DNA of 24,621 bases from a virus. Where the stretch lies: positions 1 through 24,621 of the IMG/VR virus record IMGVR_UViG_3300042350_003189. One strand, 5' to 3'. Numbering within the stretch: position 1 is the first letter of the stretch; the number at the start of each line of letters is the position of its first letter. A program made the position numbers and the translations under genes. Below the pieces are notes generated by a model. It did not search any database. It was given only the letters and a program-made list of their open reading frames with translations, and had not been told where the DNA came from. This document shows, piece by piece, positions 6,160 through 23,677 of this stretch.

Positions 6160-7308
6160 ATGATACGACTAAAAAACATACTACTGGAAGAACCAAAATC
6201 GCCAAGTGAAGACCCCGATAAAATGCTTGTGAAGAACAAGGAAAGCGGGAAGTCGTATTATATTAGTAAAGCAAGTTTCGACCCTTCGATTCACGAAAAA
6301 CCAGAAGAAAAAAAGAAAAAGAAAAAAGAAGAACCTTCCACACCTAAAAAAGAAAAAGGTGGTGGTGGTGGTTTAATGGATAAATTAAAGGCCGAGAAGG
6401 AAAAATCTTCATCTGGTGAAGAAGAAGAAAAGCCGGAAGAGAAAAAAGAAACACCGTCTCAAAAGTTAGAAAAGAAACTCGGTTCTTTTGTCTTTGTTGA
6501 TGAAAAAGAAAAAGAGGAAATTGCCGACGATGCTCGGAGTATGAGACCCGACCTCAAAGAAAAACTATTGAAATTCGATTTCACATCATTTTTCAGAGAG
6601 TATGATTCTTTAATGGACACACTCGGTGACCAACAGGATAAGAAAGATAACGAAGGTGCAAAAGAAACTGTTATCGCAATAAGAAAAGCTGCTAAGAGGA
6701 TTCAAGGTGTTGCCATTGCAAAATTGGCAGCACTTTCTACATTCAAAAATGACCCCGAAGTAATAACTGCTTCAAAATATTATCATAATGATTCTACAAG
6801 TATAAATGAATTCTTACGCCAAGGTGGTGAAATAAATTGGTCTTTGGAGGATTTGAAGAAGACATTAGATACACCAAATGCAAAAGAAAAATTTCCACTA
6901 AAATATAAGATGTATAATGTCCTAACTTTGGATAATCATTTTAAAACAGATGGTGCTAAACTACAAAACGATACTGTTGTTTATCGTGGTGTAAAGGATG
7001 ATATTTTGAAAAAATTTGTTGAATCTGGTGAGTGGGTTGATAATGGATTTGTTTCAACTTCACTTAATCCACTTATTGCCGAAGATTTTACAGATAGAAA
7101 TTTGACAACGGGTAACAGAAAAGCAAGAACACCGATATTCAAAATAAACTTAAAACGAGGAAACCCCGTACTTATGTTACCTTGTTCAGAAGATGAATTT
7201 TGTATTGAATCAGAAATAACACTTCCTCGTGGTTGTAAATTTACAATAACGGGTAAAGACGAAGAAAAGAACATTTACGATATATCAGTGGAGTTTCCAA
7301 ATGCCTGA
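6160..7308 (+). CDS. Alt/ModA-like mono-ADP-ribosyltransferase
   Basis: This 382-residue protein carries the complete R-S-E signature of arginine-type ADP-ribosyltransferases. R276 is in VVYRGV. The STS motif (S299-T300-S301) is in GFVSTSLNP. The E-x-E pair (E350, E352) is in CIESEITLPRG. T4 Alt has the closely similar FVSTSLYP and MEVILPRG (known). T4 Alt, ModA and ModB use NAD+ to modify host RNA polymerase and translation proteins. Residues 1-11, MIRLKNILLEE, look like a capsid-targeting peptide. Residues 45-105 are a Lys/Glu-rich low-complexity linker with a Gly5 run, and 105-240 form a helical region. No Shine-Dalgarno is visible before the ATG, which lies 14 bp after bS21. The setting among head genes suggests it is packaged and injected, as Alt is; that part is inference. 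Catalysis is well supported, target unknown. Confidence 0.88.
   Translation: MIRLKNILLEEPKSPSEDPDKMLVKNKESGKSYYISKASFDPSIHEKPEEKKKKKKEEPSTPKKEKGGGGGLMDKLKAEKEKSSSGEEEEKPEEKKETPSQKLEKKLGSFVFVDEKEKEEIADDARSMRPDLKEKLLKFDFTSFFREYDSLMDTLGDQQDKKDNEGAKETVIAIRKAAKRIQGVAIAKLAALSTFKNDPEVITASKYYHNDSTSINEFLRQGGEINWSLEDLKKTLDTPNAKEKFPLKYKMYNVLTLDNHFKTDGAKLQNDTVVYRGVKDDILKKFVESGEWVDNGFVSTSLNPLIAEDFTDRNLTTGNRKARTPIFKINLKRGNPVLMLPCSEDEFCIESEITLPRGCKFTITGKDEEKNIYDISVEFPNA
6292..6474 (+). repeat. Lys/Glu low-complexity linker in the ADP-ribosyltransferase
   Basis: An A/G-rich stretch encoding runs of Lys, Glu and Pro plus a five-glycine run (GGTGGTGGTGGTGG near 6360). It separates the N-terminal peptide from the rest of the enzyme and is probably disordered. 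Confidence 0.7.
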
Positions 7309-18091: not shown

Positions 18092-18580
18092 ATGGCTGAA
18101 TTACTGGATCCTACCGAAGTATTTTTTACCCCATATGAACCGAAACTTGCTAACCGGTTTATTATGTACATCGAAGGTGTTCCTGCTTATCTCATCAAAG
18201 GTGCAAGTAGACCAAACATTAACTTTAACCCTATCACACTTGACCACATCAATGTGAAGCGTAAGGTTAAGGGTAAAGGTGAATGGCAGGATGTCACTAT
18301 CAAGCTATATGACCCAATCGTTCCATCAGCTGCACAGGCAGTCATGGAGTGGGTTCGTCTATCACACGAGTCTGTAACAGGTCGTGATGGTTATTCTGAC
18401 TTCTATAAGAAGGACATTACATTCAACGTTCTTGGTCCAGTTGGTGACAAGGTTGAAGAATGGACTTTGAAGGGTGCGTTTATCACAGCAACAACATTTG
18501 GTGATATGGATTGGTCAACAGATAACTTTGTTGAAATTTCCCTCACACTTGCTTACGATTACGCAATCCTCCAATACTAA
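18092..18580 (+). CDS. gp19: Tail tube protein (gp19-like)
   Basis: The inner tube subunit through which DNA passes, 162 residues (T4 gp19 has 163). Recognisable features are the opening LDPTEVFFTPYEPKLANRF (about residues 5-23), the beta strand ITLDHINVKRKVKGKGEW (about 49-66), the loop segment LSHESVTGRDGYSDFYKKD, and the final strands TWSLKGA-type EEWTLKGAFITATTFGDMDW and NFVEISLTLAYDYAIL, typical of T4-type tube proteins. Length, position directly after the sheath and the end pattern all agree. A TTGGAGAA Shine-Dalgarno precedes the ATG. It is its own transcription unit between two terminators. Confidence 0.94.
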   Translation: MAELLDPTEVFFTPYEPKLANRFIMYIEGVPAYLIKGASRPNINFNPITLDHINVKRKVKGKGEWQDVTIKLYDPIVPSAAQAVMEWVRLSHESVTGRDGYSDFYKKDITFNVLGPVGDKVEEWTLKGAFITATTFGDMDWSTDNFVEISLTLAYDYAILQY

Positions 18581-18680: not shown

Positions 18681-19550
18681 ATGGCACAGTTACCAACTGG
18701 TTATGAAGCCCCAAAAAATGCTATGGAAATGAGTGACGAAGAACTCAAAGCCAATTTGATGGCAGATTTCAAGCAAACTTCAGTCAAGAAATCAAACTTT
18801 CCAACAGAAATTGTCCCACTCCCGTCCAAAGGTTTACTTTACCCAGAGGGACATCCACTTGCAGACGGTACTATCGAAATGAAGTATATGACTGCAAAGG
18901 AAGAAGATATTCTCACATCACAGAACCTTATTAAACAAGGCGTGGTATTAGATAAATTGTTTGAGTCACTCATTGTTACTCCAATTAATTATGGTGACCT
19001 TTACGTCGGTGATAAGAACGCAATCATGGTTGCAGCAAGAATTTTAGGTTATGGCAAAGATTATGTAGTAGAAATTGACGACCCGTTTTCACCAGGTACT
19101 AAACAAAAAGTTACAATTGATTTGACTCAAATAGAGCACAAGGAGGTGGATTATTCTCTATTCGAGCACAGGAAGAATGAGTTCGACTTCCAACTGCCTC
19201 AGTCGAAACGGGTCGTCACATTTCGTTTGATGACTCATGAATTGGAAAAACAAATTCAAACAGAAATAAAGAGTATGAACAAAACACAAGTTCGTACTGG
19301 AATTGATAGAGAATTAACAACAAGATTGAAAAATATCATTGTTGCTATTGATGGTGAATCTGGTAGGGCAACTGTAAATAATTTTGTTGATAACGAATTG
19401 TTTGCGGTTGATTCACGAGCTCTTCGTGCTCATATCAAGGATATGTCACCTGACCTTGATATGGGATTCACATTTATTTCAGATACTACTGGTGACGTAA
19501 AGGAGATGGAAATCCCTATGGGAGTTTCATTTTTTTGGCCTGGGAATTGA
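18681..19550 (+). CDS. gp26: Baseplate hub assembly protein / tail chaperone (gp26-like)
   Basis: This 289-residue protein matches the T4-like gp26 (T4_baseplate) family as I recall it: VPLPSKGLLYPEGHPL (about residues 45-60), MKYMTAKEEDILTSQNLIKQ (about 68-87), VVLDKLFESLIVTPINYGDL (about 88-107) and GDKNAIMVAARILGYGKDY (about 110-128). In T4, gp26 and gp51 are assembly factors for the baseplate hub and are not abundant in the virion. The frame ends in FFWPGN and TGA at 19548-19550. Just before the end, a T7 run (19530-19536) can shift ribosomes into a gp51-like frame, giving a fusion of about 360 residues. The gene is followed by the tape measure, as the G/GT chaperones are in other tailed phages. 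The start has an AGGA site at 18670-18673. Confidence 0.82.
   Translation: MAQLPTGYEAPKNAMEMSDEELKANLMADFKQTSVKKSNFPTEIVPLPSKGLLYPEGHPLADGTIEMKYMTAKEEDILTSQNLIKQGVVLDKLFESLIVTPINYGDLYVGDKNAIMVAARILGYGKDYVVEIDDPFSPGTKQKVTIDLTQIEHKEVDYSLFEHRKNEFDFQLPQSKRVVTFRLMTHELEKQIQTEIKSMNKTQVRTGIDRELTTRLKNIIVAIDGESGRATVNNFVDNELFAVDSRALRAHIKDMSPDLDMGFTFISDTTGDVKEMEIPMGVSFFWPGN
19530..19536 (+). promoter_or_regulatory. Candidate programmed frameshift site (T7 run)
   Basis: Seven T residues are read as TTT TTT TGG in the gp26 frame. A phenylalanine tRNA on 19533-19535 could re-pair one base downstream (19534-19536) while the Trp codon waits, so that GGC is read next (+1). A -2 slip reaches the same frame with one extra Phe. 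A -1 slip would meet a TAG at 19559-19561. The two frames overlap only in 19501-19550. Confidence 0.6.
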
Positions 19551-19764
19551 TTATAAATTAGCATTACACGAGGAGATATTCTCTTTATGTTATCATGGTC
19601 AAGGTGGGTTCACTTGGGATGAAGTTTATGGATTGCCTATACATTTGCGAAGATTCTATATTAAAAAGATTATAGATACAGTCGAGGCAAAAAACAAGGC
19701 ACAATCAGAATCACAAAGAACATCAACTTCAAAATCAAAACCACCAAGTTTTAGACCTAAATAG
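19537..19764 (+). CDS. gp51: gp51-like frame without a start codon, expressed by frameshift from gp26
   Basis: A continuous frame of 75 codons, +1 relative to gp26. It reads GLGIDYKLALHEEIFSLCYH, then GQGGFTWDEVYGLPIHLRRF, YIKKIIDTVEAKNK and a Ser/Lys-rich end. The HEEIF...GGFTW..VY.LP.HLRRFY pattern is that of the gp51 hub-assembly proteins of marine T4-like phages, as I recall them. The frame opens after a TAA at 19498-19500 and contains no ATG at all. The first possible TTG start is at 19633, beyond the conserved LHEEIF and GGFTW part. The coding pattern and conserved motif argue that it is translated, so the simplest route is a shift at the T7 run. A rare CTG (19540) or ATT (19546) start, or a sequencing error of one base in the T run, are the alternatives. 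Confidence 0.72.
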   Translation, partial: GLGIDYKLALHEEIFSLCYHGQGGFTWDEVYGLPIHLRRFYIKKIIDTVEAKNKAQSESQRTSTSKSKPPSFRPK

Positions 19765-19805: not shown

Positions 19806-19809
19806 ATAT

Positions 19810-19813
19810 GGAG
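19810..19813 (+). promoter_or_regulatory. Shine-Dalgarno fixing ATG 19820
   Basis: GGAG lies six bases before ATG 19820. The in-frame ATG at 19808 overlaps the site itself and has none upstream, so the downstream start is preferred. Confidence 0.65.
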
Positions 19814-19819
19814 TTTATT

Positions 19820-20020
19820 ATGGAATTGAAAGAGGCACTATCTAAAACAATCGTAGATTATATTTCAAAAGGAAAAATTGGAAGCTTAGAACGTGCATTT
19901 AAACAAGACGCTGTTTTAAGTAGTTATATCCAAGATTATTGGAATTCTCATAATGATTTTATGAAAAGAATAGATATGTGGTGCAAAAAATACCCAGAAT
20001 CCTGTAAGAAAAAAGTTTAA
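19820..20020 (+). CDS. Small protein before the tape measure (66 aa)
   Basis: Not recognised. A compact helical protein: MELKEALSKTIVDYISKGKI, a middle with LERAFKQDAVLSSYIQDYW, and a Lys-rich end holding two cysteines (MWCKKYPESCKKK). It is the first gene of the tape-measure unit, behind its own promoter octamer and a strong GGAG, and it ends 12 bp before the tape-measure start. The size and place would suit a tape-measure chaperone, but this is inferred from position alone. Confidence 0.7.
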   Translation: MELKEALSKTIVDYISKGKIGSLERAFKQDAVLSSYIQDYWNSHNDFMKRIDMWCKKYPESCKKKV

Positions 20021-20032
20021 CTGGATTTATAA

Positions 20033-23000
20033 ATGGCAAAAGAAACACAAAATAATAAGAATGATGGTGAACTTATAAAACTTCGTCGTCAAGAACTTGG
20101 TGTAACACAAGAGATAATGAATCTTCGTAAGAAATTAGAATCATTATCCGCTCGTGATTTATCAAACATCAAAGAAATTGAAAAGTTAAAAAAGAGTATT
20201 TTAAATCTTGAAACAAAAAAATCGGAAATATCTAAGAAGCTGATTGATTCTGATGAAAAAGTAAAAAAGATTAAAGAAGATACTTTAGATACTGTTGAAA
20301 AAACGGCAAAAAAGGAAAAAGAACAAGTTGATTTGACAAAAGAACATCAAAAGCAACTTCGTGAAAATAAAAAGATATTGAACGATGTTCAAGATACAAG
20401 TGCCGATATTCAAAATTTAACTAAACAATTACTTAAAGATGATAAATCGAGAAATGACCTTGTAGACAGATTAAATGGTGCGTACCAAGTAAGTCAAGGA
20501 TTAGTACAATCAATACAATCGGGTGTAAAAGATACATCCGAAGAGTATAAGAATTTTGTCTCAATCGGTAAAGATGTACAAAGTTTACTCTTATCATCGG
20601 TAAATCTAGAAGCACAGATAAATGAATCCAGAAAAATGGCATCTCAAGGTATGTACGACGAAGTAGATGTCAGAGAACAAGAAAGTTTATTAAGAAAGAT
20701 AAATATAGAACTTGAAGATGAAGACGTAAAACTTACAAAAGAAAAACGAGAACAACTTGAAATGGCAAGGGATATTGCAATGGAATCAATAGATATTGCC
20801 AAGAAACAAAATGAAATAAATGAAGAGGCCGCGAAAATAGCAGAGGGTCATAACAAATCCATATCCAATTCAAGTGAATTACTTGGTGGATTATTTGATA
20901 AAACAGAAGGTCTTGTTAGTAAATTACCGGGTGGTGATAAATTACTCAAGGTTTTTGGATTCGAAAAGATGAAATCTCAAATAAATGAAAATCTTGGCGG
21001 AACTTTAACAAATGTAATCAATGGATTTAAAGAAGGTGGTGTATCTGGATTCAAAGCACTTGGACAAGGTGCAATGCAATTTGGGAAAACATTGTTGATG
21101 GGCCCACAGGCTGCAATATTTGGAATACTTGCGGCAGTTGCACTTGTTGTTGATATGTTTATGGATTTAGATGGTGCTGTATCTGAAGTACAAAAAGAAC
21201 TTGGTGGAACAAAAAAGGAAGCCCTTGCTGCTCATGAAGCGGCACATGATATGGCGCACGAGATGAATCTCGTCGGTGTTAATACGAAAGAAGTTGTAAA
21301 GGGTATGTCAACTGTCTCTGAAATTATGGGCGGTATAGACGTTAAGAATATGATGCAGGCACCTGGAATGAAAGAGATGGTAAAGGATGCAACTCTTCTT
21401 TCAGAAAAATTTGGTATGTCAAAAGAAGAAATCGAGAACGTACATACTCTTTCTACAATAACTGGCAAATCAATGTCAACACTTGCAGGAGAAGCTATTC
21501 AAGTTGCAGGTGGTGTAATGAAAACAAAGGATGCTGTTAAACTTCTTGGTGGTATATCAAAAGATGTTGCTATTTCATTTAAGGGCGGTACAAAAGAACT
21601 TATAGCCGCGGCAGCAAAGGCAAAATTACTTGGTACTGATTTAAAGAAAGTTAAAGATATTGGTATGGGTATGTTGGATATTGAAACGTCTCTTGAAAAG
21701 GAGATGGAAGCCCGTGCCATACTTGGTAGAGATATTAATTTAGATAGGGCAAGAGAAGCTGCATTAAGCGGAGACGTTGCAACACTCCAAGACGAATTAT
21801 TAACACAGGCTGGTTCACTTAAACAATTTCAAGATGGTGGTCCTCTAAAACAAAAAGCACTTGCCGATGCTATGGGAATGACGGTCGAAGAAATGACCGA
21901 TATGTTGACTAAGGCCGAGGAAATGAATAAACTCGGATTAGACAAACAACTTCAAGAAAAATTAGCAAATGCAACTGCCGAAGAAAAAGCTGCAATTTAC
22001 AAAAAACAAGCAGAAACTCTACAAGGAGAAGCGAGAGATTTGGCACTTCGTAAAGCCGCCGAAGAAGAATCCGCATCAACGGCTGAAAAGTTCGGCGATA
22101 TAATGACCAAGATAAAAGAAACTGCCATGAAATTGGTAACTCCAATTCTTGATATGGTTCATGGTTTAATGGATGGTGCCACACAGGGCGGTGGACTGTT
22201 AGACGTTTTTGATGGAATAATATCAACACTTAAACCAATAATGGAAATCATCTTCGGTATAGGTAAGATAATATTTCAGAGTTTGATATTTCCATTCAAA
22301 CTTGTCTTTTCGATTGTTTCGCCTATAATAGATGCGGTAAAAGAAGTCTTCTCTGCATTCAGTTCTGGTGAAAAAGATGCAACCAGTATTTCAGATATAT
22401 TCGATGGTATAGCTGGTGTGATGTCTACAATACAAGATGTAGTTGGTGGTATAGTTAAAGTATTTATCGGTGGTTTAATAGAACCGGGTAAAATACTTTG
22501 GAAATCAATTATAACACCATTGTGGGAAACATTTAAGGGAATATATGATACACTTTCAAAGGCATTCGAACCTTTGTTTGCTGCAACCGGAGAAGGTGAA
22601 AAAACCGCAGGAGTTATGGAAACTATAAAAAAAGTTATTAGTTCACTTTCACCTGTACTTGAAGTGATAGGTGGATTAATCGCTGGTGTAATCATGAAGC
22701 CATTTGAAATGTTCGCCAATTTAATACAAATTGTGATTAAATTGTTTACAGGTGACATGACAGGTGCCGTTGATAAATTAGGAGAGTATCTCTTTGATTA
22801 CTTTCTTGGTATCCCAGAAATGGTAATCACTGCTGTCTCAAAAATAATAGATGGTATTTTTGGAACAAATCTAACGGCAGGTGTTACTGACTTTTTTGCA
22901 TTTATAAAAGATGGGTTTAAGTCTATTGCCGGATTAATTGAACCTATATTTGGATTTATCAAGAAAATTGGTGGACTCATTATTGACAACATAATGGCAC

Positions 23001-23677
23001 CATTTAAATTTGTATGGGGGATACTTGGTGGAATTGGTAAAATGTTTACCGGTGATTTCATGGGAGGACTAAAACAAATCGGTAGTGCAATTACTGAATA
23101 CATAATGACACCTATTAATTTTGTTAAAGGTTTATTTGAAGGATTTGTTGGTCTGTTTACGGGTATAGCAGATAAGATAAAAGGAGTAATCAAAGATTTA
23201 CTACCAGGATGGGCATTGGATATATTAGGATTGGGTGAAGAGTCTGCACCAGCAACATCTGGTGGTAGCAAATCAGAGTCAGTTCAAGTTGCAGCTGCGG
23301 CGAAGGGTGGTGAAGTTGCAAAGGGTGGTATGATGTTAGTTGGTGAAAAAGGACCGGAGATTGTTACATTACCACAAGGTGCCTCTGTTGCATCCACCAG
23401 TGCAGGAGAACAAACTGGTGGAATATTAAGTGCAATGGGTGTTGACGATATGGGTGGCACATCTGGTGGAATCGCCACATCAGGAAACGGTGGTGGTAAT
23501 AATATGTCAAATGTAGAAAAGAAACTGGACACACTTATTACATTATTCTCACAAGCTGCAAACCAACCAACAGTTATCAAGTTTGGTGATAAGACCGTGG
23601 AAGAAATTAAAGGTCAACTAAACTTCAAAAAAGCATATACGATAGGAACGGATAATAGTTATGGTCGTTCAATCTAA
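20033..23677 (+). CDS. Tail tape measure protein
   Basis: This 1214-residue protein sets tail length and is carried in the tube lumen. Residues 1-270 are long Lys/Glu-rich coiled coils (KLRRQELGVTQEIMNLRKKL, KEKREQLEMARDIAMESIDI). Residues about 355-378 hold a hydrophobic segment (GPQAAIFGILAAVALVVDMF). The region 380-680 is helical with KAEEMNKLGLDKQLQEKLAN, and 700-1075 carries repeated hydrophobic Gly/Ile/Phe-rich stretches such as PILDMVHGLMDGATQGGG and IIDNIMAPFKFVWGILGGIG. Near the end is GGMMLVGEKGPEIVTLPQGA (about 1099-1118), a motif found at the C-terminus of many tape measures. It takes the place of T4 gp29 (590 residues) but is twice as long, without visible similarity to it. The Shine-Dalgarno is weak (GGA), suggesting coupling to the 66-aa gene. 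Confidence 0.9.
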   Translation: MAKETQNNKNDGELIKLRRQELGVTQEIMNLRKKLESLSARDLSNIKEIEKLKKSILNLETKKSEISKKLIDSDEKVKKIKEDTLDTVEKTAKKEKEQVDLTKEHQKQLRENKKILNDVQDTSADIQNLTKQLLKDDKSRNDLVDRLNGAYQVSQGLVQSIQSGVKDTSEEYKNFVSIGKDVQSLLLSSVNLEAQINESRKMASQGMYDEVDVREQESLLRKINIELEDEDVKLTKEKREQLEMARDIAMESIDIAKKQNEINEEAAKIAEGHNKSISNSSELLGGLFDKTEGLVSKLPGGDKLLKVFGFEKMKSQINENLGGTLTNVINGFKEGGVSGFKALGQGAMQFGKTLLMGPQAAIFGILAAVALVVDMFMDLDGAVSEVQKELGGTKKEALAAHEAAHDMAHEMNLVGVNTKEVVKGMSTVSEIMGGIDVKNMMQAPGMKEMVKDATLLSEKFGMSKEEIENVHTLSTITGKSMSTLAGEAIQVAGGVMKTKDAVKLLGGISKDVAISFKGGTKELIAAAAKAKLLGTDLKKVKDIGMGMLDIETSLEKEMEARAILGRDINLDRAREAALSGDVATLQDELLTQAGSLKQFQDGGPLKQKALADAMGMTVEEMTDMLTKAEEMNKLGLDKQLQEKLANATAEEKAAIYKKQAETLQGEARDLALRKAAEEESASTAEKFGDIMTKIKETAMKLVTPILDMVHGLMDGATQGGGLLDVFDGIISTLKPIMEIIFGIGKIIFQSLIFPFKLVFSIVSPIIDAVKEVFSAFSSGEKDATSISDIFDGIAGVMSTIQDVVGGIVKVFIGGLIEPGKILWKSIITPLWETFKGIYDTLSKAFEPLFAATGEGEKTAGVMETIKKVISSLSPVLEVIGGLIAGVIMKPFEMFANLIQIVIKLFTGDMTGAVDKLGEYLFDYFLGIPEMVITAVSKIIDGIFGTNLTAGVTDFFAFIKDGFKSIAGLIEPIFGFIKKIGGLIIDNIMAPFKFVWGILGGIGKMFTGDFMGGLKQIGSAITEYIMTPINFVKGLFEGFVGLFTGIADKIKGVIKDLLPGWALDILGLGEESAPATSGGSKSESVQVAAAAKGGEVAKGGMMLVGEKGPEIVTLPQGASVASTSAGEQTGGILSAMGVDDMGGTSGGIATSGNGGGNNMSNVEKKLDTLITLFSQAANQPTVIKFGDKTVEEIKGQLNFKKAYTIGTDNSYGRSI

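Follow-up and report, generated by a model that had tools for sequence, protein, structure and literature searches.

In phage lambda, the tail assembly chaperone gene G/GT lies between the tail tube and tape measure genes, and is expressed as a short form and as a long form made by a -1 frameshift at the first frame's 3' end. Forward shifting is known from the +1 sites of prfB (CUU UGA) and Ty1 (CUU AGG C), where a YUU codon in the P site can re-pair one base forward.

Tail assembly chaperones of T4-like phages were identified earlier, and in some of these phages the short form has one gene and the long, fused form another (PMC10885494). The assignment of T4 gp26/gp51 as chaperones is already published, the link being attributed to Vladimirov, Gautam and Davidson (2022) in papers that cite them (PMC10885494; PMC12846349), and so are the poly-T -1 shifts of T4-like phages, which PMC12846349 credits to the same work; that gp26/gp51 is the pair meant there is our reading of the paper's title and of the domain layout of gp51. 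The annotated frameshifts of actinobacteriophages, mostly in chaperone genes, include +1 events; a study that also covers the prfB +1 frameshift used 350 forward sites for training (PMC10885494).

Here we analyse a locus in a 24,621-nucleotide stretch of viral DNA (hereafter the window), which very probably, as comparison with related sequences suggests, encodes a lambda G/GT-like tail assembly chaperone, belonging to the T4-type (PF12322) family and made by a programmed +1 shift, as in hundreds of uncultured relatives. It resembles lambda G/GT in its place between the tube and tape measure genes and in having a short form, G, and a long form, G-T, that departs from the first frame at its 3' end, but differs from it in the direction of the shift, which would occur at UUU UUU UGG, and in its sequence family. 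T4 shares with it a homologous G domain, and the set that T matches includes the C-terminus of gp51; however, T4 uses two genes that lie on opposite strands, with no shift, whereas the window has one gene plus a +1 frame. The -1 poly-T sites of cyanophages, Aeh1 and Vandenendeviridae likewise have Phe-Phe codons at the junction and a T tail in another frame (PMC12846349), but they read T TTT TTY, while in the window and its relatives T is in +1 and the unbroken run almost never has a T before it. At glass-sponge mitochondrial +1 sites, too, UGG precedes a Gly codon of the +1 frame (PMC2267718).

Frames and homologies of the G and T parts

The preliminary description of this DNA had placed a 75-codon frame in +1 of a gp26-like gene, which was confirmed (19537-19764 relative to 18681-19550; Table 1). 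The +1 open reading frame runs from 19501 to the stop TAG at 19762-19764, and its 75 codons from 19537 to 19761 start GLGIDYKLALHEEIF. As also described, it has no start ahead of its conserved motif: ATG is absent, and the earliest alternative start, a TTG, comes 97 nt past the junction, within that motif. The TTTTTTT run is present as well, but not followed by a Trp codon as had been worded, the seventh T being itself the first base of TGG: in phase 0 of the G frame, positions 19530-19536 read TTT, TTT and then the T of TGG.

Table 1. Features of the chaperone locus and its flanks (window positions)
Feature	Position	Strand	Basis or remark
Tail tube gene (gp19-like)	18092..18580	+	phrog_4542 E 6.9e-27; PF06841 E 1.3e-6
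Short chaperone form G (gp26-like, PF12322)	18681..19550	+	ORF, 289 aa, frame 0
Long form G-T (predicted product, 360 aa)	18681-19535 joined to 19537-19761; span 18681..19764	+	
SD-like AAGGAG	19500-19505	+	within possible hairpin region
Possible upstream RNA hairpin, ending at the T-run	19500..19536	+	window fold -14.0 kcal/mol; suggestive only
Shift site UUU UUU UGG	19530..19538	+	phase and conservation
Shift-site codons	19530-32 UUU (E site); 19533-35 UUU (P site); 19536-38 UGG (A site)	+	
T part, +1 frame	19537..19764	+	75 codons plus TAG; frame open from 19501
0-frame stop TGA	19548..19550	+	four codons past slip point
Tape measure gene	20033..23677	+	phrog_991 E 1.6e-14

G matches PF12322 (E 1.3e-6, 28.7 bits over a cut-off of 24.5) and phrog_150 (E 1.9e-11), and aligns by hhalign with T4/cyanophage gp26 along its length up to the Phe-Phe end (E 9.7e-10). 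T aligns by the same program (E 7.6e-8) with a 14-row set that combines T parts of the -1 frame with the C-terminus of T4 gp51; the fusion family profile gave no significant match to T4 gp51 alone, and T has a weak match to DUF6760 (E 0.004, below the curated cut-off). In T4 gp51, a PF12322 domain (1-201) precedes a T-type tail, so that on sequence grounds gp51 is the long form encoded as its own gene, with gp26 as the short form. The proposal that gp26 and gp51 are the two parts of a chaperone is supported, except that gp51 does not correspond to the small frame alone, since it has a full gp26-like domain in front of the T tail. The structures of G and T were predicted apart and compared with the PDB, where neither had a significant match and G had none to a solved chaperone; its comparison with the HK97 chaperone 2ob9_B (E 5, probability 0.14) was not significant.

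The G/T locus lies between tail tube and tape measure genes, in the gene order of tail assembly chaperones. Together with the profile match of G to T4 gp26 and that of T to the set containing the gp51 C-terminus, this position points to a G/GT-like chaperone, a reading of the preliminary description that is strongly supported by the comparative evidence on frame, junction, gene order and homology.

T is separated from the tape measure gene by a 70-codon ORF (19808-20020) with family matches of E 0.03 or worse, and a hypothetical gene occupies the matching position in Mel-JY01. Elsewhere in the window, the C-terminal half of an ORF in the head cluster (6160-7308) looks by eye like an ADP-ribosyltransferase (YRG...STS motif). 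A tRNA scan of the window found none.

Conservation of the T frame and of the probable shift site

We fetched 80 IMG/VR relatives as a first set and gathered a second one starting from a member found on a WOR-3 bacterial contig; with both sets and further scans pooled, the frame of T was scored by HMM in the 342 loci where T could be placed. T is in +1 in every member of the first set having both parts, in 80/80 of the second set and in 340/342 loci overall. Among 52 non-redundant close relatives (<90% identity), the decamer TTTTTTGGCC is invariant (52/52) while neighbouring codons vary. A miscount of the seven T by sequencing is refuted by this shared frame and identical decamer. The 0-frame stop comes 3-6 codons after the slip point in nearly all relatives. 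The start position of T is not conserved: some relatives have an ATG or TTG shortly upstream in the +1 frame, and three (L053, L062 and L063) lack ATG, GTG and TTG throughout the +1 ORF.

The two exceptions to +1, L293 and L297, have altered junctions (TTC TTG TAT and TTC CTT TGG CCA), and T sits there in a different frame just after the G stop, where it has an ATG of its own and a longer N-terminus, a natural example of a separate T. They are the only relatives in which T has a start codon to itself and the slippery run is missing.

Site statistics were drawn from 245 non-redundant members. The P-site codon is TTT in 232, CTT in 12 and TTG in 1, the A-site codon TGG in 235 (the others being TAC, TAT, TTC or, in the SP-15 type, CAC), and a T follows the P-site codon in 244/245. 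The junction core is [T/C]TT.T, extended by the Trp codon TGG in 235, and some relatives carry exactly CUU UGG C; the slippery run is conserved across the aligned loci, along with the lack of a conserved T start. In 244/245 members the site has the P-site YUU followed by U of the prfB type. It departs from the -1 pattern X XXY YYZ, in which T would lie in -1 behind U UUU UUY. Neither the Trp codon nor the GGC after the shift proved essential, TAC, TAT and TTC being found in the A site, and GGT and GGA in place of GGC.

Third bases are constrained as well. TTC is never the P-site Phe codon, although it makes up 27% of Phe codons elsewhere. A T precedes the unbroken TTT TTT in 1/217, where codon usage predicts ~102, and precedes the TTC-broken run (TTC TTT) in 3/11; comparing unbroken runs with all others, Fisher's test gives P 0.005, a value that assumes independent sequences and overstates the case. 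A (as in the window), C and G all occur before the run, with many amino acids encoded. This third-base evidence shows that the signal is under selection, and the avoidance of U before the unbroken run is what is expected if a U there allowed backward slippage on U UUU UUU.

These data bear on the other ways in which T could be expressed. It is very improbable that T is made as a small protein of its own, through independent initiation or translational coupling. The Mel-JY01 record does list T as its own CDS, some members offer a +1-frame ATG or TTG just ahead, and L293 and L297 indicate that a free T is possible; however, the start position is not kept, several members lack any of the three start codons, that of the window lies inside the conserved motif, and independent starts would leave both the YTT.T TGG junction and the third-base constraints unexplained. 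The conserved junction and the lack of a conserved start argue instead for a C-terminal extension of G reached by frameshifting, as far as sequences can tell.

For the frame change itself, the preliminary description had allowed +1 or -2, and the comparison supports +1. A -2 shift makes the Mu chaperone, and six or seven T would permit the P-site tRNA to re-pair two bases back, but the sites TTC TTT TGG and TTT CTT TGG (11/245 each) would put the Phe or Leu tRNA on TCT or TTC, where it cannot re-pair, and the sites of immuto (CTT TGG) and GXN1 (TTC TTT CGT) tell against it too, leaving -2 with a minimal chance of being right. We give as little credence to slippage of RNA polymerase on the T-run, by which some mRNAs would be one T shorter and no ribosomal shift would be needed: most members have seven T, but the +1 relation is kept in members with just three or four consecutive T, and the exclusions of UUC from the P site and of U before the run are codon-phase effects.

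Proposed slippage and the upstream RNA

In the +1 mechanism that we propose, most ribosomes would stay in frame 0 and terminate at 19548, giving the short form G, while a fraction would pause with tRNA-Phe on the P-site UUU and UGG waiting in the A site, perhaps through slow decoding of UGG, although TAC, TAT and TTC are found in the A site of some relatives. The P-site tRNA would then re-pair one base forward (UUU.U to UUU; YUU to UUU family-wide), the U at 19536 would be skipped, GGC at 19537-19539 would enter the A site and reading would go on into T, producing the 360-aa G-T fusion. The two products would be made in a set ratio; by analogy with lambda, G would coat the tape measure protein, with tail tube subunits recruited by the less abundant G-T. 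The frame relation, the missing starts, the conserved site, the conservation of both parts, the homologies and the gene order are read directly from the sequences; the occurrence of the shift, its efficiency and the chaperone roles of G and G-T are inferred.

RNA structure upstream of the site may assist the shift. Among 160 relatives, folding upstream exceeds the expectation from protein and codon usage, with a mean z of -1.3 to -2.0 versus -0.1 in a control region; against base composition, it is about -1.0 at -36..+5, the lowest in a 500-nt scan in which other windows reach -0.75. A hairpin beside the E site was found to increase +1 and decrease -1 shifting on 70S ribosomes (PMC6321510). 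The shape of the hairpin varies between clades and covariation is weak, and its role as a stimulator is suggestive. We rejected a universal upstream hairpin, as consensus folding and covariation give no single shared shape in spite of the folding statistics, and also a consensus downstream stem-loop, gapless RNAalifold on 52 members giving no structure and downstream folding being near random.

About half of the relatives carry SD-like AGGAG or GGAGG motifs 28-38 nt ahead of TGG, where these are strongly enriched over the rest of G; this distance is too far for the usual spacing. The prfB site, by comparison, has an SD 3 nt upstream and a stop codon in the A site, whereas here the A site holds UGG and the stop follows 3-6 codons later.

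Direction of the probable shift across the PF12322 family

T is not in the same frame throughout the family. It lies in -1 with T TTT TTY in the cyanophages Syn1, S-RIM8 and S-H9-1 and in Melnitz, phiN3, Yut2, Aeh1, PA5oct, XacN1, RAS14, Atu_ph07 and LR756511, and in -1 with another site in Vibrio D531 and the Ackermannviridae phage STML-13-1. It lies in +1 in RM378 (TTT TTT TGG), immuto (TTT CTT TGG), Mel-JY01, SP-15, LIS04, GXN1, BRock, LuckySocke and LR756508. The frames of these distant phages were assigned from open frames and motif likeness judged by eye, with no individual HMM score. On a G-domain tree the directions cluster, with 4 changes versus a shuffled mean of 13.4; RM378, T4 gp26, T4 gp51 and LR756511 form long branches whose placement is uncertain.

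In Syn1, S-RIM8 and Melnitz, the annotated gp51 or hub assembly genes begin at an ATG inside T, upstream of which the -1 frame stays open into gp26, with T TTT TTY. Aeh1, a member of the Straboviridae and a relative of T4, has gp26 with a -1 T frame behind GAT TTT TTC GAC TGA.

Taken jointly, three proposals seem to us somewhat better than even: that a very large group of uncultured phages uses a deeply conserved +1 shift of bacterial ribosomes at a sense codon (YUU UGG) with an upstream RNA stimulator, that the T4-type chaperone family switched the direction of shifting while its Phe-Phe junction stayed largely constant, and that T4 itself swapped the shift for a gene duplication. The literature searched yielded no +1 branch of the PF12322 family with a UUU UUU UGG signal, no family-wide switch of direction and no statistically supported upstream RNA structure.

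The finding corrects a common mis-annotation: the immuto, GXN1 and LIS04 records omit T, some others cover only part of it with a small hypothetical ORF, and that of Mel-JY01 gives it as a separate hypothetical gene, while the 'gp51' of cyanophage Syn1 is annotated from an internal ATG and G is termed 'baseplate hub' in many public records. It also provides a natural data set on forward versus backward slippage, in which homologous Phe-Phe codons serve both +1 and -1 and the two kinds of loci differ in the base before these codons and in the codon after them. The origin of the two-gene system of T4 becomes testable.
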